Below are positions 15,320-23,596 of a stretch of DNA of 64,000 bases, in pieces. Source of the stretch: Poriferisphaera corsica (lineage in GTDB: Bacteria; Planctomycetota; Phycisphaerae; Phycisphaerales; Phycisphaeraceae); the NCBI RefSeq assembly GCF_007747445.1, contig NZ_CP036425.1, positions 4,200,175-4,264,174 on the forward strand, in the 5' to 3' direction. Both the position numbers and the translations under genes were made by a program. Positions within the stretch are counted from its first letter, which is position 1. Each line of letters opens with the position of its first letter. The notes beneath the pieces were generated by a model. It was not told the origin of the DNA and searched no databases. It worked only from the letters and a program-made list of their open reading frames with translations.

Positions 15320-16486
15320 ATGTGCGACAATATCCCCCCCACATTGGACAACGCAAAACCCTCATCTCACGGAGTTCAATCACCGCTAGCACATCGTTTT
15401 ATAACAGGAGGGGGATGGGACATCCGCGCACAAATGCGCATCCGTGAAGGCAGTATGTGCGACTATCATGCGCTTAGCCGCTTCCACTATCGCTCAGCCC
15501 GCCCCGGTGCTCCCACCCGCGTCCTCGTTCTCGAACATGTCGCGCACAACAATGATTCAACCCACACACAAACGCTCGCAAAACCCAATCAATCCTTAAA
15601 CAACAACACGACATATCTTCCAGCCGTGACCGGCCGCACGCACGACGACTCGTTGCACACAACCAACCAACCCTTAGAGCCTTTTGCTTCAATCACTGAC
15701 ACACAAAAACAGGCGCACCCGGCAGCAGCCGCGCGCCACAAATCCTTGTCAGACCATGACCTGACGGTCAAAGAAAACGCAAACCCGCAAAACGCTCTTC
15801 ATAAACATCAACGTGATGCAACCATCGTCGGCGTGCTCGTCGAGTCACTCCCCGCACTCTCCTGCAGCCTCCGCGACTACGCGCTTAATAGCCGATTCGG
15901 CTCACCCCTCACACTCCGGCAGCGCGCAAAACTGCTCAACGCCGAAGTCCGCTGCATCTCCCGTGTCGTCATCCACCCCCAATACCGCGGCCTCTCTCTC
16001 GCAGTTCACCTCGTCCAGCACGCATTAACCACTGCCACAACTCGCTTTACAGAATCACTCGCTGCCATGGGGCAGGTCAATCCCTTCTTCGAAAAGGCCG
16101 GAATGACCGCCTATTCGCGCCCTCAACACGCCAGAGATGCTCGTCTAACTGCTGCTTTGGCAAGCATTAACATCAATCAGTCTGACTTGGTCCGCATCGC
16201 ACACGCTGCTGCTCTCATCGCAGGCTTGCCCAACGCGCAATACCTCTGGATCTATGCCGAGCTTAAGCGTTGGGCCAGTAATTACTTACGTGATCGTAAA
16301 CATCAAAAAACCGCACCTCATAAGGCTCCCCATGACTCTAAGATCCTTCATGATCTCCTCGATCTCGCTCGCAAGCGTCTCTTCTTTAAGCCTTTATATT
16401 ACCTGCACTTAAACAACTCGGACTGGCCTTCAGGCTACCACGCTGCGGGGACAGATTGTGGATCAAATCTGGACATCCGCGCGTAA
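15320..16486 (+). CDS. GNAT-fold protein resembling the COG2401 acetyltransferase half
   Basis: This 388-residue protein contains a GNAT fold. IREGSMCDYHALSRFHYRS and TRVLVLEH (41-73) give the first strands, ATIVGVLVESL (167-177) the next, and RCISRVVIHPQYRGLSLAVH (211-230) the acetyl-CoA-binding P-loop region. AMGQVNPFFEKAGMTAY follows at 249-265. This order matches the acetyltransferase half of COG2401 proteins, in which it is fused to an ABC-type ATPase; here a separate COG2401-like ATPase gene lies 1.1 kb downstream. About 93 polar residues (74-166) interrupt the fold between strands. A run of seven C (15334-15340) lies five codons into the gene. Substrate unknown; the N-terminal 40 residues and exact start are uncertain. 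Confidence 0.75.
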   Translation: MCDNIPPTLDNAKPSSHGVQSPLAHRFITGGGWDIRAQMRIREGSMCDYHALSRFHYRSARPGAPTRVLVLEHVAHNNDSTHTQTLAKPNQSLNNNTTYLPAVTGRTHDDSLHTTNQPLEPFASITDTQKQAHPAAAARHKSLSDHDLTVKENANPQNALHKHQRDATIVGVLVESLPALSCSLRDYALNSRFGSPLTLRQRAKLLNAEVRCISRVVIHPQYRGLSLAVHLVQHALTTATTRFTESLAAMGQVNPFFEKAGMTAYSRPQHARDARLTAALASININQSDLVRIAHAAALIAGLPNAQYLWIYAELKRWASNYLRDRKHQKTAPHKAPHDSKILHDLLDLARKRLFFKPLYYLHLNNSDWPSGYHAAGTDCGSNLDIRA

Positions 16487-16736
16487 CTATCTACAACCCC
16501 TCAGTCACACTCAAATCTGAGTCAAAAAAACTTGAATTTCATTCAATCAAGTGAAACCTATTTTTATCTAACCTATTGATAATTCATAAATTGCAACCTT
16601 CGTGACAGCAGTATGTCAGCGATGGCACTACGAGTGTACGAATCTGAATATTGCCTGATTGACGGTGACAGATTCATGTTGTTGAATACAAACATATACC
16701 TAACTTTTTACGAACATTTCTGTGAGGCAATGTAAC
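16487..16736 (+). promoter_or_regulatory. Intergenic region with inverted repeats at the GC-skew switch
   Basis: Two inverted repeats are visible: ACTTGA/TCAAGT (16530-16535 with 16547-16552) and TGACA/TGTCA (16603-16607 with 16614-16618). The first may act as a weak terminator for the GNAT gene, and the second may be an operator for the HTH gene. This is where the + strand changes from C-rich to G-rich. No DnaA boxes were recognised. Confidence 0.35.
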
Positions 16737-17222
16737 ATGGTACAGGTACGAGGTAGTCTTAAAGGTTTAAGTGAAGAGAATTTACGTATCAATATGGTGA
16801 GCCATTCTGAAGAGCTTTTGGATCGGTCGACGCATCTGCCGACAGCTGATCGGGTGTTACTGGAACAGGTGCTGCGGTATGGGTTTACAGCACATGAAAT
16901 CGGCCGTTTGTCAGGCATTACGTCGAGTTCTGTGTTGCGCCGCGTTAGAAAATTGAGCGGCCGCTTGCGCGATCCGATGTATCGATTTGTGACGGAGAAG
17001 GAAGTTCTGATCCCACGGGATCTTAAGGTGACGGCGCGGCTGATCTTTGTAGAAGGTCGAAGTATGCGCGTCGCATCTGAAAAGCAGGGAGTCACGATGC
17101 ATCACACACGCAAGCGCGTGCAGCAATTACGGATGCTTAAAGAAGCTCACGAACAAATGAACGGTTTAGGTGAAACGCTCAAACGTGAGCGCACCCGCGG
17201 GCGGTCGCGTAAACGATCATAA
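16737..17222 (+). CDS. Helix-turn-helix DNA-binding protein (two HTH motifs)
   Basis: The 161-residue basic protein shows two sigma-70 region-4-like helix-turn-helix segments. One is around ADRVLLEQVLRYGFTAHEIG and SGITSSSVLRRVRKL (about residues 43-77). The second is around LIFVEGRSMRVASEKQ and MHHTRKRVQQLRML (about 104-136). The C-terminus is very basic (RERTRGRSRKRS). It probably regulates the cassette genes downstream, or acts as a terminase-type DNA adaptor. The ATG at 16737 has GAGG nine bases upstream and is preferred over the GTG at 16722. No named family is claimed. Confidence 0.7.
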   Translation: MVQVRGSLKGLSEENLRINMVSHSEELLDRSTHLPTADRVLLEQVLRYGFTAHEIGRLSGITSSSVLRRVRKLSGRLRDPMYRFVTEKEVLIPRDLKVTARLIFVEGRSMRVASEKQGVTMHHTRKRVQQLRMLKEAHEQMNGLGETLKRERTRGRSRKRS

Positions 17223-17620
17223 TTCCCCTATCTTTAACTATCTAATCATTAGTTCGTTACGCGAACTATAGCCAGTTAGTTACTTTTGATTGTTTATGAA
17301 AACATGAATACAAAAAGTGGGGGGGGGGAAGATGGAGATCTGTCAACGGAGGCAGAAGCATAACGTCGCGGAGTGCAGATGGACGGTTGAAAGATAAAGG
17401 ATGAATAAGGACGGCGTACACAAATGAGGGGAAGCGGATAATGAAAAGTATACGTGTGAATAAAGGATCGGGAGGCTGAAAAGTGGGTCGTAAAAGAAGG
17501 AAGTAATAAATAAGAAGAAGGGGGATGGGGCAGGGGGGGGTGAATAAGGCTATGGCGTTGTTGCTACGTGTGACTGTTTGATGAAATGAGTACGGCAGAT
17601 TCTTCAAGGAGATGAAAGCG
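17223..17620 (+). other. Polypurine-rich non-coding stretch
   Basis: I see no gene here; the opposite strand is open across part of it, but that product is only a low-complexity S/L/P/F string. On the + strand the stretch is strongly purine-rich, with runs of ten G (17319-17328) and eight G (17533-17540) and repeated GAAG/AAGG. The ribosome site AAGGAG at its end serves the ATPase gene. Confidence 0.5.
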
Positions 17621-18340
17621 ATGGGACAGTGTGAATGTGTGACCGTTAAAAAAAGTGTAAAGACGATGGCGGCGGCGAGTGAGCACGTGCTACAGGTCGC
17701 GTGCATGTTTGGGTTGGGCGTGGATGAAGAGCGGGAGGAAGTGATTGTGCCACGGACGGAGGTGCCAGTGCCTGATGGGGCGGTGGTGTATGTGACGGGC
17801 GCGAGTGGGAGTGGGAAATCGACTATTTTAAGGTTGATAAAATCACAATTACAGTCAGACGCGTCAATGCATTTGATTGATTTTGATGCGATGGAGATTG
17901 AGAACGGGGTGGAGCGGAGTTTAGTCGATGGGTTTGATGATGATGCGCCACTGAAAGACGTTTTGCGGTGGTTGAGTATTGCGGGATTGAATGACGCGTT
18001 TGTGATGTTGAGGAAGCCACGCGAATTGTCGGATGGCCAGCGATACCGTCTGAAGCTTGCTAAAGCGATTGGTGAATCGGAGCAGGTGCTGAGTCAGGGG
18101 AAAAAGGTTGTTGTGTTTGCGGATGAGTTTGGAGCAACGCTGGATCGTGTGACAGCGAAAGTTATTGCAAAGAATGTACAGCGGTGGGTTAGAAGTCATG
18201 TAGAAGATAGTGAAGAGGGATCCGTAACGATGATTGTGGCGACAACACATGAGGATTTAATGGAAGCGTTGGAGCCGAGCGTTTTGGTGGAGAAGGGATT
18301 GGGGGGTGAGGTTGCGGTTTATAGTCGAGGAGGGGAGTGA
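17621..18340 (+). CDS. ABC-type ATPase of COG2401 type
   Basis: This 239-residue soluble ATPase has Walker A GASGSGKS at residues 60-67, signature LSDGQRYRLKLAKAI from about 136, Walker B VVVFADEFGATLDR from about 162, and an H-loop-like TTHEDLMEALEPSVLVEKG near the end. This pattern is that of the ATPase half of COG2401 proteins, which normally continue into an acetyltransferase domain; that half is encoded separately at 15320-16486. The protein has no transmembrane part, so it is not a transporter. AAGGAG nine bases upstream supports the ATG at 17621; one at 17612 overlaps it too closely. It lies between HTH and ParB-like genes. Role unknown. Confidence 0.82.
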   Translation: MGQCECVTVKKSVKTMAAASEHVLQVACMFGLGVDEEREEVIVPRTEVPVPDGAVVYVTGASGSGKSTILRLIKSQLQSDASMHLIDFDAMEIENGVERSLVDGFDDDAPLKDVLRWLSIAGLNDAFVMLRKPRELSDGQRYRLKLAKAIGESEQVLSQGKKVVVFADEFGATLDRVTAKVIAKNVQRWVRSHVEDSEEGSVTMIVATTHEDLMEALEPSVLVEKGLGGEVAVYSRGGE

Positions 18341-18456
18341 TTAAGAACTTGAAGATCGGTGGGTTGTCAACCCTCGGTTATTGGAATGATGAGCGGCTTA
18401 ACATTGGTTGGATCGTAAACAATATTGGTTGGCAATAAAATTGAAAATGAGGATTA

Positions 18457-19203
18457 ATGATGGACAAGCATCGAAGGATACGTCTTGCGCGGTTGGTGGC
18501 GCACCCGCTGAATAGCAATGTAATGGATGGTGAGAAATTCGAGAAGTTAAAGGGACATATGGATCGAACGGGGAAGTATCCGCCGATTATTGTCAGGGTC
18601 TTAAATGATCGCAGGCTTGGATGTAAACACCCCAGCACCGGTGGTACTGGGCTTGTTAAAGATGTTTCTATTGAGGGGTTAGATAATGGTGTATTGTGCG
18701 ATGAGTTTGGGGCGGAAATGGAAGTTACAGCTGACGATCTGGCGGGTGAACCGGGGAGGATTGATGGGCGAACATATGAGATTTTGGATGGGCATCATCG
18801 CGTGGAGGCGATACGGGCACTGGGATGGAAGTCAGCTGCGTGCGTGGTGTGGGATGTGGATGATGATGAGGCGCTAACGTTATTGGCAACACTCAATCGT
18901 CTGAGTGGTGAAGATGATGTTTTGAAACGTGGGCAGTTAGTGAAATCAATTGCGGAACGGATGGGGGAGGGTGCTGATCTTCGCGGAAAATTAGCGGCGC
19001 TATTACCGGAGAATCGTGAGGGCGTTAGCAAGTTGTTGGAAGTGGCGGAAGAGAGAGTAAGAATGCGACGGCCGATGGCGTTGGGGGAGATGCCGAGAGC
19101 GGTTCATTTCTTTTTGAAGGCTGAGGATAAGCGTCAGTTAGAAAAGCGACTTAAAGAGATTGGCGGATCGAGAGAAGCTGCTCTGATGTCGTTGATTTGC
19201 TGA
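18457..19203 (+). CDS. ParB/Srx-fold protein with in-frame insertion
   Basis: The 248-residue protein has a ParB N-terminal-like (ParB/sulfiredoxin) fold. RIRLARLVAHPLNSNVM and YPPIIVRVL (residues 41-49) are followed by the catalytic/nucleotide motif ILDGHHRVEAIRALGW (109-124), AACVVWDVDDDEAL, and a helical C-terminal region. Between YPPIIVRVL and the DGHHR motif lie about 53 extra residues (52-104) containing CKHPSTGGTGL, which is encoded by a palindromic repeat also present in the TerL-like gene. Proteins of this fold can be CTPases, nucleases or DNA-binding proteins; phages often carry one near terminase genes. It is not a chromosomal parB, because no partner ParA is adjacent. A second ATG three bases later has better spacing to GAGG. 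Confidence 0.82.
   Translation: MMDKHRRIRLARLVAHPLNSNVMDGEKFEKLKGHMDRTGKYPPIIVRVLNDRRLGCKHPSTGGTGLVKDVSIEGLDNGVLCDEFGAEMEVTADDLAGEPGRIDGRTYEILDGHHRVEAIRALGWKSAACVVWDVDDDEALTLLATLNRLSGEDDVLKRGQLVKSIAERMGEGADLRGKLAALLPENREGVSKLLEVAEERVRMRRPMALGEMPRAVHFFLKAEDKRQLEKRLKEIGGSREAALMSLIC
18625..18655 (+). repeat. Palindromic repeat copy 1, inside the ParB-like gene
   Basis: This 31-base sequence matches 29 of 31 bases of 21036-21066. Its core CCCAGCACCGG/TGGTACTGGG forms a near-perfect hairpin. In both genes it is read in the same frame and gives KHPSTGG(T/A)GL. Confidence 0.8.
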
Positions 19204-19294
19204 TTCCTTCCTATGGCAATCTGAACACATTTTAGACAACACAAATTGCACACATTGCGTTCGAGATTATCAATTAAATTTCTGGAGAGATTCT

Positions 19295-20182
19295 ATGAAG
19301 AATGTTTATGTATGGTTTGAGGTCAATACAACTAGTGAAAACTATCTTTCAGACTATAAACAACACGCACTAAATTGGGCAAAAATCGGCACACCAATTG
19401 TTACAGGTAAGAAAAATACGGTAGTAGAAGTTATCACCGACATCATGAACACTACCGGGCTGAAAGTTATTCCTGGTATTAAATTAACAGAATTTTTCAG
19501 ATCGGCTTTCGACGAAAATCCAAATATTACCTGTGATGATCCTCGCATTTGGGATGAAATACGTCATGTATCATCTCAACTCAAACAATTAACAAACAGC
19601 AATGATATTGTGTTTGAGAATGAAGGCATGAATACATTTTTGTATCGGTATTACAACATGTCACCAACGGAATACAATGATGAATCATCTGAAAACTTCT
19701 TTAATTATCGCGACCTATACAACATTAACTTTGACATACTTGAAGGATCCGTGGCTACACGAAATTGGGATCATAATGTTTGGTTATGGACGGGTGTTTC
19801 CGGAAGCAACGATCCTAAGTACACAAAGAGTTTAAGTACAAGCTACGCGATCACAAAATCACTGATTAATGGTTTTAATCATCATGGAAATGATTCGTCT
19901 AAATGTCGCTTAATTAAATTAGGGAAAGCTGCATACTCAGGTTCACCCAATAGTACTTTCAGTGCGCTTAATGATGTAATTAACAAAAAACATGATGAAG
20001 ATGCACTCACTATTATTTATCTTGATGATAGCACTTCAAGCCAATGGGATTTAGATCAAGTCGTAACAGCGATTAGTCATGCAGAAGGTGATGTCATTCT
20101 TTACCCGGGTTCTAGTGACATTGGAAATCATGAACAAGTTTGGGATGCAATTAAAAACGAGTTAGTTCGATCAGTTGATTGA
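19295..20182 (+). CDS. Unrecognised 295-residue protein, low-GC cargo gene
   Basis: I do not recognise this protein. It has no signal peptide or membrane segment. Segments such as LKVIPGIKLTEFFRSAF, IVFENEGMNTFLYRYYNM and WDHNVWLWTG, with Asp/Glu and Trp at strand ends, could belong to a TIM-barrel enzyme, but that is a guess. The ribosome site GGAGAG, eight bases before the ATG, is good. Base use differs sharply from its neighbours: it is AT-rich with balanced G and C, while the genes on both sides are strongly G-rich. It sits between the ParB-like and TerS-like genes like an inserted cargo (moron-type) gene. Confidence 0.75.
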   Translation: MKNVYVWFEVNTTSENYLSDYKQHALNWAKIGTPIVTGKKNTVVEVITDIMNTTGLKVIPGIKLTEFFRSAFDENPNITCDDPRIWDEIRHVSSQLKQLTNSNDIVFENEGMNTFLYRYYNMSPTEYNDESSENFFNYRDLYNINFDILEGSVATRNWDHNVWLWTGVSGSNDPKYTKSLSTSYAITKSLINGFNHHGNDSSKCRLIKLGKAAYSGSPNSTFSALNDVINKKHDEDALTIIYLDDSTSSQWDLDQVVTAISHAEGDVILYPGSSDIGNHEQVWDAIKNELVRSVD

Positions 20183-20239
20183 TGAACCAATGTTTGTGGT
20201 TCGTTACTTAACGGTAGCAAACCACATTGGAGGTATACC

Positions 20240-20692
20240 ATGACAAAACGTATAGGCAAAATGAAACGGCGGGAATTGATTGAGGATTTGGTTGATGCAA
20301 AGCATGATTTGAAAGCGTTGGGTAAGCGGTATGGATTAGCGGTGGATGAGTTGGCAACGTGGGCGGGGGAACAGGAGAATGCGCGGACACTTGGTGGGCT
20401 TTGTTTTTTGGCGGATATGCAGACGCAGCTCATGTTGTCGCGGTACCGGTTGCTGGCGGCAGATCGTTTGGTGAGATTGGCAACTGATGAAGGGGAAGGC
20501 AGTTCAAGTGAAGTGTCACGTAAGGCGTGTGTGGATTTGCTCAAGATGGACTTGAAGCGCGCAGATGGGAATGGTACGGGCCGTGATGCGGAAGAGGTTT
20601 GTCGTGATAAAAAAAATGCGCCTAACCATGAATTAGGGTTTTTCGATTTGGATGGAATGAGACAGATGCTGTATGGATCCCCCCCCTGTTAA
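20240..20692 (+). CDS. Terminase small subunit-like protein
   Basis: The 150-residue protein has an N-terminal HTH-like part (RRELIEDLVDAKHDLKALGKRYGL, then VDELATWAGE) followed by helices and VSRKACVDLLKMDL. This layout, and its position 58 bases before a TerL-like gene, suit a small terminase that recognises DNA and recruits the large subunit. Sequence identity to named families cannot be claimed. GGAGG lies six bases before the ATG. The 3' end carries a run of eight C (20679-20686), and slippage there would change the last few residues. DKKNAPN near residue 125 recurs as DKNAPN in the TerL-like protein. Confidence 0.65.
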   Translation: MTKRIGKMKRRELIEDLVDAKHDLKALGKRYGLAVDELATWAGEQENARTLGGLCFLADMQTQLMLSRYRLLAADRLVRLATDEGEGSSSEVSRKACVDLLKMDLKRADGNGTGRDAEEVCRDKKNAPNHELGFFDLDGMRQMLYGSPPC

Positions 20693-20750
20693 AAATAATG
20701 GGTATTGTCAAGATTCAAGTGAGTGTGGTTTGTATTTCTGATTTGAGAGG

Positions 20751-22451
20751 GTGATGATGAGCAAATTAGCGATTGAAAAAATTCGGGAGTGGGGACGATT
20801 GGGCCAATTGTATGCGGTGCGGCCTCGGGATGAGGATGAATTGCATTTATTTGTGAAGGTGGTTTTGGGATTGAATGTGCCACGGGAAGCGCGGTACGAG
20901 GGGAATGATGGCGCTTTTGAATATGTGAAATGGGCATATTTTGAAGGATCCCCTCCTATCCCCCCCACTGAAAGAGAAGTGCTCGGGGCTGATGCTGAAG
21001 AAGATGCAAGCGAAGCGGGAAATCATGGCTGTAGCAAACACCCCAGCACCGGCGGTGCTGGGCTTGATTATGATGTTGATAAAAATGCGCCTAATGATGT
21101 GTTAGATGATATGGCGTTGCGCACAGGCTCAGGGATGAGATCGGAAGATAAGGCTAACGAACAGGGGGGGGACTGTGTGGTGTGGGCGAATCGGGGTGGT
21201 GGGAAGACGATGTTGGGTGCGGTGGTAACGTTGTTGGATCTGATGTTTAAGCCGGGGATACAGGTGCGGATTTTAGGTGGGTCGCTGGAACAGTCGGGAA
21301 GAATGTATGAGCACTTGTTAGGGCTGTTGGAGCGGCCGATGCTGAAGGGGATTGTGAAGGGGGAGCCGACACAAAGGAAAATTGAGTTGGTGAATGGGAG
21401 CCGGGTTGAGATTTTGGCGCAAAGTCAACGGTCAGTGCGCGGTGTGCGGGTACATAAGTTAAGGTGCGATGAGGTGGAGGAATTTGATAAGGATGTGTGG
21501 GAGGCGGCGCAGTTGGTGACTCGGAGCGGGTGGTGCGGTGATGTGTGGGTGAAAGGTAGGGTAGAAGCGTTATCGACGATGCATCGAGCGGGAGGTTTGA
21601 TGGGCCGATTGGTGAGTCAGGGGTGGCAGGTGTTTCGATGGAATGCGATTGATGTGATGCAGCGGTGTGATAGAGAATGTGAAGGATGCGTGCTGGCTGA
21701 TGATTGTGGGGGCAAGGGGAAAAAGGGGGAAGGGTTTGTAGGGGTTGATGATCTGGTGGATCAGTGGCGGCGGACGAGCTTGGGGACGTGGGAGAGTGAA
21801 ATGATGTGCAGGAAGCCGCGATTGGATGAGATGGTTTATCCGATGTTTGAGCGAGGAAGGCATGTCACTCGGAAGTTAGAGATTGAAAAAATACGAGGTG
21901 AACATGCGCTGAGCCGGTATGTGATTGGGGGAATGGATTTTGGAATACGGAGTTTGGCAGTTGTGCTGACGGCGGAGGTTTATGAGTTAGAAGATGGTAA
22001 GCAGGTTGTGCATGTGGTCGATGAAGTATTGGTGGGTGGGATGCGATTGGAGAAAGTTGTGAAGAAATGGGAAGAAGGCCGGGCTAATCGAGAGATAGAT
22101 TGGCCGCGATGGATGGGAGTAGACCCGGCAGGTGTGGCGCGGAATATGCAAACGGGGCTGAGTGATGTGGCGGTGCTGGAGGAAGCGGGGTATGTGGTGC
22201 GCACGGGGCGGGTGCGGATGAGAGAGGGGATCGAACTGGTGAGGAAGATGTTGGATAAAGAGGAGTTGTATGTGCACCCACGATGTGTGGGGTTGATCGA
22301 GGCGATGGAGGGTTATCATTTTGACAGACGGCATGTAGGGAGTGAGGAGCCAGTGAAGGATGGGAGTGATCATGCGTGCGATGCGATGCGGTATATGCTG
22401 CAAAATTTGGTGATGGGGAAGGGGAAGAAGGTGGCGGTGGGGCGGTATTGA
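20751..22451 (+). CDS. Terminase large subunit-like protein with in-frame insertion
   Basis: This 566-residue protein resembles TerL packaging motors. The ATPase half has the Walker A-like VVWANRGGGKTML (143-155) and the Walker B-like LRCDEVEEFDKDVW. The RNase H-like nuclease half shows GGMDFG (Asp 396), MGVDPAG (Asp 461) and SDHACDAMRY (540-548), matching the three acidic clusters of TerL nucleases. A four-cysteine cluster (CDRECEGCVLADDC) lies between. About 75 residues (66-140) with CSKHPSTGGAGL and DKNAPN precede Walker A and look inserted. The gene contains seven-C (20960-20966) and eight-G (21164-21171) runs, both in the extra stretch, yet stays open. Known role: translocating and cutting phage DNA. 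No portal, capsid or tail gene follows. Confidence 0.85.
   Translation: MMMSKLAIEKIREWGRLGQLYAVRPRDEDELHLFVKVVLGLNVPREARYEGNDGAFEYVKWAYFEGSPPIPPTEREVLGADAEEDASEAGNHGCSKHPSTGGAGLDYDVDKNAPNDVLDDMALRTGSGMRSEDKANEQGGDCVVWANRGGGKTMLGAVVTLLDLMFKPGIQVRILGGSLEQSGRMYEHLLGLLERPMLKGIVKGEPTQRKIELVNGSRVEILAQSQRSVRGVRVHKLRCDEVEEFDKDVWEAAQLVTRSGWCGDVWVKGRVEALSTMHRAGGLMGRLVSQGWQVFRWNAIDVMQRCDRECEGCVLADDCGGKGKKGEGFVGVDDLVDQWRRTSLGTWESEMMCRKPRLDEMVYPMFERGRHVTRKLEIEKIRGEHALSRYVIGGMDFGIRSLAVVLTAEVYELEDGKQVVHVVDEVLVGGMRLEKVVKKWEEGRANREIDWPRWMGVDPAGVARNMQTGLSDVAVLEEAGYVVRTGRVRMREGIELVRKMLDKEELYVHPRCVGLIEAMEGYHFDRRHVGSEEPVKDGSDHACDAMRYMLQNLVMGKGKKVAVGRY
21036..21066 (+). repeat. Palindromic repeat copy 2, inside the TerL-like gene
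   Basis: The core CCAGCACCGGCGGTGCTGG is a perfect palindrome apart from its central base. It matches 18625-18655 at 29 of 31 bases and is translated in the same frame (KHPSTGGAGL). Confidence 0.85.
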
Positions 22452-22636: not shown

Positions 22637-23596
22637 ATGCATTATTTGATGTTTTTGTTTGTTTGTGTGGTGTGGGGGACGAGTTTCATACTGATGAAGT
22701 ATGCGAGCGTTGTTTTTGGGGCGATGACCGTGGGCGGGGGAAGGGTCATGGGCGGTGCTATCTTTTTGGGATTGATGTTGGGGACGGTTGGGTTGCTGCG
22801 TAAACGAAGGCAACGGGGTGTGAGGTTTGGTGTGGTTGCGAAGAAGCGTGTTCGGTTTATGTGGCGACGGCATGGTTTGGGATTGCTTGTGCCGGCGTTT
22901 ATTGGTTTGGGTTATCCGTTTGCGATGCAGCCGTACTTGATTGGGAAGTATGAGAACAGTTCATTCTTCGGGATGATGATGTGTTTGGTGCCTGTTTTGA
23001 CGATTTTGGCGAGCGTGGTGATGCTGGGTGTGTGGCCACGCGTGAGAGAGATTGTGGGTGTGGTTGGTGGTGGGGTTGGGATTTGGATGTTGTTTGGTGA
23101 TGCGGTGGAGCGAGATATTACGGCGATTGATTTTGTGTTGGCAGTGAGTGTGCCGGCGTGTTATGCGGTGAGCAATACGTATGTGAAGAAGAAGTTGGGC
23201 GAATTGCCGCCGGCGATACTGGGGGCTTGGGCATTGGGTTTGGCGGCAATTGTGGTCTTGCCGATGGGATTGGTGAGCGAGAGTGTGGTGAGGGATGTGA
23301 GCTGGTTACAGATAAGCTGGGCGGTGATGTGTATTTTGATTTTGGGTGTAGTGGGTAGTGGGATTGCGATGTGGATGATGTATGAGATGGTGCAGAAGCG
23401 GGGGCCGCTGTTTGCGGGGATGGTGACGTATATGGTGTGCGGCTTTGCGGTGATGTGGGGATGGGTGGATGGTGAGGTGGTAACGAGTGGGCAGCTCATT
23501 GCACTGGGTGTGATTTGGTTGATGGTGGCGCTGGTGCAGTGGCCTTCGCGAAAGTCCCGCCCCCAAGAGTTGCCTGTTATCAGTTCGAATGTGTAA
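22637..23596 (+). CDS. DMT-superfamily (EamA) transporter
   Basis: This 319-residue protein is made of two repeated EamA domains with about ten membrane segments. It opens YLMFLFVCVVWGTSFILMKY, the usual first helix of the family, and the second repeat begins near ITAIDFVLAVSVPACYAVSN. Members export or exchange small metabolites; the substrate is unknown. AAAGG six bases upstream supports the ATG at 22637. It follows the terminase-like gene by 185 bases and appears to be the first ordinary chromosomal gene after the cassette. A run of seven G (22557-22563) lies in that gap. Confidence 0.88.
   Translation: MHYLMFLFVCVVWGTSFILMKYASVVFGAMTVGGGRVMGGAIFLGLMLGTVGLLRKRRQRGVRFGVVAKKRVRFMWRRHGLGLLVPAFIGLGYPFAMQPYLIGKYENSSFFGMMMCLVPVLTILASVVMLGVWPRVREIVGVVGGGVGIWMLFGDAVERDITAIDFVLAVSVPACYAVSNTYVKKKLGELPPAILGAWALGLAAIVVLPMGLVSESVVRDVSWLQISWAVMCILILGVVGSGIAMWMMYEMVQKRGPLFAGMVTYMVCGFAVMWGWVDGEVVTSGQLIALGVIWLMVALVQWPSRKSRPQELPVISSNV

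Follow-up and report, generated by a model that had tools for sequence, protein, structure and literature searches.

A terminase cassette without virion genes is vertically inherited in the class Phycisphaerae

The stretch of Poriferisphaera corsica DNA analysed here (the window: 64,000 nucleotides, G000:C1:4200175-4264174, from a genome of 4.29 Mb on one contig) carries a cassette that encodes a large terminase subunit (TerL), a TerS-like protein, a GNAT-fold acyltransferase, a protein with two helix-turn-helix (HTH) motifs, an ABC-type ATPase, a ParB-like protein and a low-GC orphan open reading frame (ORF). The cassette is, with high confidence, a domesticated terminase module maintained under selection. 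It very probably serves now as an ordinary cell function, for example DNA transfer or DNA processing. An initial annotation had listed these seven genes, all on the + strand, with no virion gene nearby; the genes and their positions were confirmed and, up to about 10 kb away from the cassette, nothing could be recognised as a virion gene. No integrase or replication gene was recognised in it, no profile search for integrases having been made. The literature searched contained no account of such a cassette in Phycisphaerae.

The comparison drew on two sets of genomes, one of 51 from the same GTDB family and one of 396 from the class. TerL is encoded by one copy in 30 of the 51 family genomes (25/33 of the good ones). 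Its profile matches 232 of the 396 class genomes, about 210 of them strongly (E below 1e-40, counted from the class profile table), and a match of any strength is found in 158 of 266 class genera. Elsewhere in the phylum the matches are weak or moderate, strong ones being confined to the class. Named TerL records come from metagenome-assembled genomes of Phycisphaerae or Phycisphaerales and from the cultured strains ZRK32 (CP066225.1) and ZRK34. The initial annotation had proposed a search of relatives for the same gene set and order, and for its recurrence without virion genes in several lineages. Both are found: the usual arrangement is HTH–ATPase–GNAT–ParB–TerS–TerL, the module is kept across about 20 GTDB families, and the same order, in single copy and without virion genes, occurs in well over 100 genera. 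The set recurs in loci of further families of the class; in the most distant ones fewer of its members were detected. The TerL tree follows the GTDB families (16 groups with 15 changes, the minimum possible), and all 21 sequences of family f1 group together with full support. The flanking genes are common to part of the family of the window genome; MurE/MurF-, MraY- and mqnD-like genes adjoin the cassette in several of its genomes.

TerL combines an ATPase, a Cys4 insert and an RNase H-type nuclease. Residues K84, T85, D172, E173, D330, D394 and D476/D480 are invariant in an alignment of 52/52 class TerLs, so that the Walker A, Walker B and nuclease acidic clusters described earlier are all present. 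By its sequence the protein is thus predicted to have the Walker A/B ATPase and the RNase H-fold nuclease with three acidic residues that define a TerL. The AlphaFold model of a family member, L064, has a pLDDT of 83, and its Foldseek matches include the D6E terminase (2.7e-19) and T4 gp17 (4.5e-15). The zinc-finger-like Cys4 insert lies between ATPase and nuclease (C245/C251/C254/C260 in L064 numbering); its four cysteines are invariant in the 52 class sequences save one exception at one position. The ratio of nonsynonymous to synonymous substitution (dN/dS, NG86) is 0.08-0.16 for TerL and 0.02-0.07 for the neighbours MraY and mqnD, all values being rough as dS is near saturation. The view that intact motifs argue against simple decay is thereby strengthened, and the relaxed selection on terL that was to speak against a retained role was not seen.

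In 20 family loci the usual arrangement begins with a divergent S24/XRE repressor gene, which precedes the gene series given above. The HTH protein has orthologs in 19 of 21 family loci. The S24 repressor, of CI/LexA type, retains the A-G cleavage site and the Ser/Lys pair, and its ortholog is present in 24 of 30 genomes with the cassette vs 1 of 21 without it. Most repressor-carrying genomes have an operator-like palindrome, GTTYAATNATNATTRAAC, upstream of the HTH gene, where it beats most shuffles; its consensus was drawn from the tested loci themselves, so the shuffle test is not fully independent. The palindrome was not found in four examined repressor-less genomes, that of the window included. 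A promoter of the type TTGAC-N17-TNNAAT precedes the HTH gene also in G044 (the same-genus genome with which the window cassette was compared), G040, G025, G027, G017 and G009. The repressor type suggests that the cassette may be controlled by DNA damage, which need not hold in the window genus. The proposal that the cassette is kept under selection for a new role is therefore strongly supported by its single copy, vertical and class-wide inheritance, invariant catalytic residues, purifying selection, and conserved promoter with repressor.

SSU5-type phages have a homologous packaging module, from which the cassette appears to descend. SSU5-type and related phages (Escherichia coli PhiR41_1, Stenotrophomonas BUCTxx99, Rhizobium RHph_N1_15, Pseudomonas Nican01) share with the cassette a block made of a ParB-like gene, the ATPase (phrog_293), the GNAT (phrog_886), a gene in the TerS position and TerL. 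The ATPase of the family member L064 is 38-42% identical to the ATPases of these phages, the GNAT of the cassette is homologous to that of the SSU5-type module (hhalign E 3.6e-12), and the ATPase, TerL and ParB profiles match proteins of related phages. In the phages the order is ParB-ATPase-GNAT-TerS-TerL, and the genes for portal, scaffold and capsid follow immediately (the Nican01 record ends after GNAT, before any portal or capsid gene), whereas the cassette stands alone. Unlike these phages, it is vertically inherited in single copy and includes an HTH gene of its own, to which relatives add an S24 repressor.

The nearest TerLs among viral contigs are those of two tailed-phage contigs, IMGVR_UViG_3300047201_000053 and 3300008470_001711 (L081 and L082; 32-34% identity). 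They have the same Cys4 insert, which is absent from SSU5-type TerLs; unlike in the cassette, their TerL is directly followed by an HK97-type portal gene (phrog_12). Only a few bacterial lineages are known to have gene transfer agents (GTAs). GTAs of the RcGTA type and the cassette have in common that they are vertically inherited, conserved, derived from phages, subject to purifying selection and equipped with a terminase and regulation of their own. Known GTAs retain portal, protease, capsid and tail genes, whereas none was found associated with the cassette; portal and capsid profiles, of limited sensitivity, detected no co-distributed virion gene. Satellites of the phage-inducible chromosomal island (PICI) type are generally known to have a packaging function without a shell of their own, as the cassette does; they redirect packaging with TerS, whereas the cassette has a full TerL and is vertical rather than mobile, as indicated by the TerL tree and by the flanks shared in part of the family.

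Virion genes were not recognised within about 10 kb of 40 homologous cassette loci; genes remote from the cassette were sought by profile only. Hidden virion genes beside class TerLs (L165, L158, L161, L151 and others) were considered and rejected: the neighbours look like ordinary genes where their start is recognisable (sulfatase, transposase, aspartyl-tRNA synthetase), a judgement based on the N-terminal sequence alone, no profile search having been made. Linkage to a cognate portal of the L081/L082 type (phrog_12), PF04860 or phrog_145, and to a capsid of PF05065 or phrog_212, was also rejected, none of them being associated with the cassette. A portal was found elsewhere in the window genome, as the initial annotation had proposed to check, in a separate HK97-type prophage near 2.104-2.117 Mb, about 2.1 Mb from the cassette. 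This ordinary prophage has its own TerS, TerL, portal, protease and tail genes. Its probable capsid gene (L104 11559-12653, - strand, about 2.11 Mb) lies between the protease and head-tail genes; it has no PHROG match, and PF05065 finds nothing in this genome. Since profiles can miss capsids, as in this prophage, the absence of a shell is likely, not proven. Strain ZRK32, of the same genus, is reported to release hexagonal particles of about 30 nm, assigned by the authors to an extrachromosomal phage of 21.9 kb (PMC10945688).

The class does contain a dispersed set of packaging genes: in the sister family f9 a terminase set coexists with remote single-copy portal, protease and capsid genes. 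Eighteen f9 genomes lack the class-wide TerL as a strong match. The 16 loci examined, L190-L205, each have adjoining portal and prohead protease genes; in L204 the protease ORF is missing from the drawn gene list, yet it clusters with the other f9 proteases. A capsid gene was found in 17 of the 18 genomes, as a single copy; G145 has two, one in a prophage. It is separated from the portal by 11-46 kb or is located on a different contig. A complete or partial version of an analogous set, ParB-(ATPase fused to GNAT)-TerS-TerL, was seen in about seven of these genomes; the f9 genomes G116 and G139 carry the class-wide TerL instead. Together the f9 genes look like a dispersed GTA, whose candidate loci (L190-L205, L229-L243, L245) occupy separate chromosomal positions in about 17 genomes. 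The f9 and class-wide systems appear to replace each other mutually. In the G145 prophage (L245), the matching TerS-TerL-portal-protease-capsid order was observed.

Mainly because of the f9 system, we lean towards GTA-like packaging of host DNA into a shell that would be encoded elsewhere or be too diverged to detect; this is tentative, its probability being close to even but short of it. Release from repression would switch the cassette on. Host DNA may be prepared or marked by the sigma4-like HTH protein together with the group of ATPase, GNAT and ParB; TerS would then select this DNA, and TerL would cut and pump it, as in the ancestral phage module, for packaging into dispersed, diverged shells. 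Several observations weigh against this. Neither portal nor capsid profiles are associated with the cassette in the family: PF04860 is present in 7/30 genomes with it vs 7/21 others, PF05065 in 8/30 vs 8/21, phrog_145 in 3/51 genomes and phrog_212 in 1/51. In the class, the phrog_12 portal is found in 25/210 cassette genomes vs 32/186 others, and, of 22 cassette genomes that represent several families, just 1 has PF05065. The cassette is dispensable, since several near-complete genomes (G043, G050, most of family f4) have lost it. The window genus has lost the repressor and operator, and its ParB and TerL carry palindromic insertions.

It is possible, at a chance somewhat below even, that the class-wide terminase has no virion of its own and acts either by repressor-controlled translocation and cleavage of DNA or by loading the heads of other phages with host DNA. 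The first of these modes, a translocase-nuclease under repressor control that processes chromosomal or incoming DNA without any virion, is by itself unlikely. It could take the form of repair, end-processing or restriction of DNA lacking a modification made by the ATPase and GNAT. The lack of associated portal or capsid genes at family and class level would fit, as would the invariance of both TerL active sites and the TerLs of G333 and G183, which have no other recognised module gene within about 10 kb. A GNAT coupled with an ABC ATPase is predicted to modify DNA bases, according to the passage of PMC7824862 that cites Iyer 2013; we infer that the cassette pair belongs to the same family. The first-ranked Foldseek neighbours of the GNAT include NAT10/TmcA and Mu Mom, though VIA-align gives Mom (Z 11.8) a tie with many other GNATs; the fold evidence for an identity with Mom is thus tied. 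This mode is disfavoured by the retention of TerS- and ParB-like partners and of phage-type regulation, which goes beyond the needs of a nuclease, and by the patchy and mobile distribution of typical defence systems, in contrast to the vertical cassette. Furthermore, we know of no terminase that works without a portal.

The second mode, in which the host terminase would load host DNA into the heads of resident or infecting phages through the phage portal, causing transduction and a lower phage yield, is rather improbable. The module, though it has no shell, looks complete for the initiation of packaging, joint induction with prophages would agree with the CI-like repression seen in relatives, and HK97-type portals are patchily present in cassette genomes. 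However, a TerL usually pairs specifically with its portal, neither portal nor capsid is detectable in many cassette genomes (e.g. G037, G020, G063), and prophage portals are not positively associated with the cassette.

A module without present function, as a relic or as the recently truncated prophage that the initial annotation had given as its alternative, is very improbable: the module is clearly phage-derived, the window copy has insertions and a lost repressor, and the TerL of G045 has one in-frame stop, but no complete prophage occupies the site in any relative, and both forms of this explanation are rejected for the lineage because of the vertical tree, the residues invariant in 52/52 sequences, the low dN/dS and a virion-free synteny kept in well over 100 genera and many GTDB families, even if decay could still apply to single genomes such as G045.

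The features of the cassette are given in Table 1. The AlphaFold model of the GNAT (pLDDT 85) has a GNAT fold; its gene is generally located between ATPase and ParB in relatives and upstream of HTH in the window genus. The ATPase has intact Walker A, LSDGQR signature and Walker B motifs. The PADLOC matches of the ATPase are generic ABC ones only (mad3 3e-12), so that no known defence system was recognised. The TerS-like family has 17 members in the GTDB family, 35-71% identical to the window copy, and hhalign found nothing significant between this family and phage TerS. The low-GC ORF has no homolog in 20 family loci, the same-genus locus in G044 included; it is specific to the window genome and is an insertion, not part of the conserved module.

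Table 1. Features of the cassette (15320-22451) and adjacent DNA, in window positions
Feature	Position	Strand	Matches and remarks
GNAT-fold acyltransferase	15320..16486	+	phrog_886, E 2.6e-12
Sigma-70-like promoter TTGACG-N17-TTGAAT	16659..16687	+	predicted from sequence; would serve the HTH-ATPase-ParB-TerS-TerL block
Two-HTH, sigma-region-4-like DNA-binding protein (predicted)	16722..17222	+	
ABC-type ATPase, COG2401-like	17612..18340	+	phrog_293, 4.2e-27; Pfam ABC_tran, 2.9e-11
ParB-like protein	18457..19203	+	phrog_723, 9.5e-16
Palindromic element in the ParB-like gene	18628-18655		in-frame insertion
Low-GC orphan ORF	19295..20182	+	between ParB and TerS
TerS-like small terminase subunit	20240..20692	+	assigned by position and conservation only
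TerL	20751..22451	+	phrog_10250, 1.9e-14; phrog_2, 1.9e-13
Palindromic element in the TerL gene	21039-21066		in-frame insertion
Gene after TerL	22637-23596		membrane transporter-like by sequence; same gene follows TerL in G044

The palindromic element, CACCCC-nnn-ACCGGCGGT-nnn-GGGGCTTG, has covarying arms and 56 copies in the window genome. The two copies in ParB and TerL are in frame (KHPSTGG); of the other copies examined, most are found outside clear long frames. The GC skew of this genome has a sawtooth form, seen genome-wide: sharp jumps from about -0.5 to +0.5 are followed by a gradual return, and no equally sharp jump occurs in the opposite direction. Within 191 kb of joined sequence the jumps are 29-49 kb apart, one of them at 16.2-16.7 kb of the window. 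Near the cassette the skew is independent of gene strand. A jump is present at the G044 cassette too and absent from 100-kb samples of G043, G050 and G037. The pattern resembles multi-origin skew; an origin signal peculiar to the cassette was rejected, since jumps recur every 29-49 kb nearby.

Either of the two modes without a virion of its own would, if true, make the terminase a host-owned packaging machine of a new kind. Were it GTA-like, the GTA concept would be extended to a new phylum and to a split genome; if not, this would be the first host-owned terminase working outside virion assembly. The cultured same-genus strain ZRK32 makes direct testing possible.

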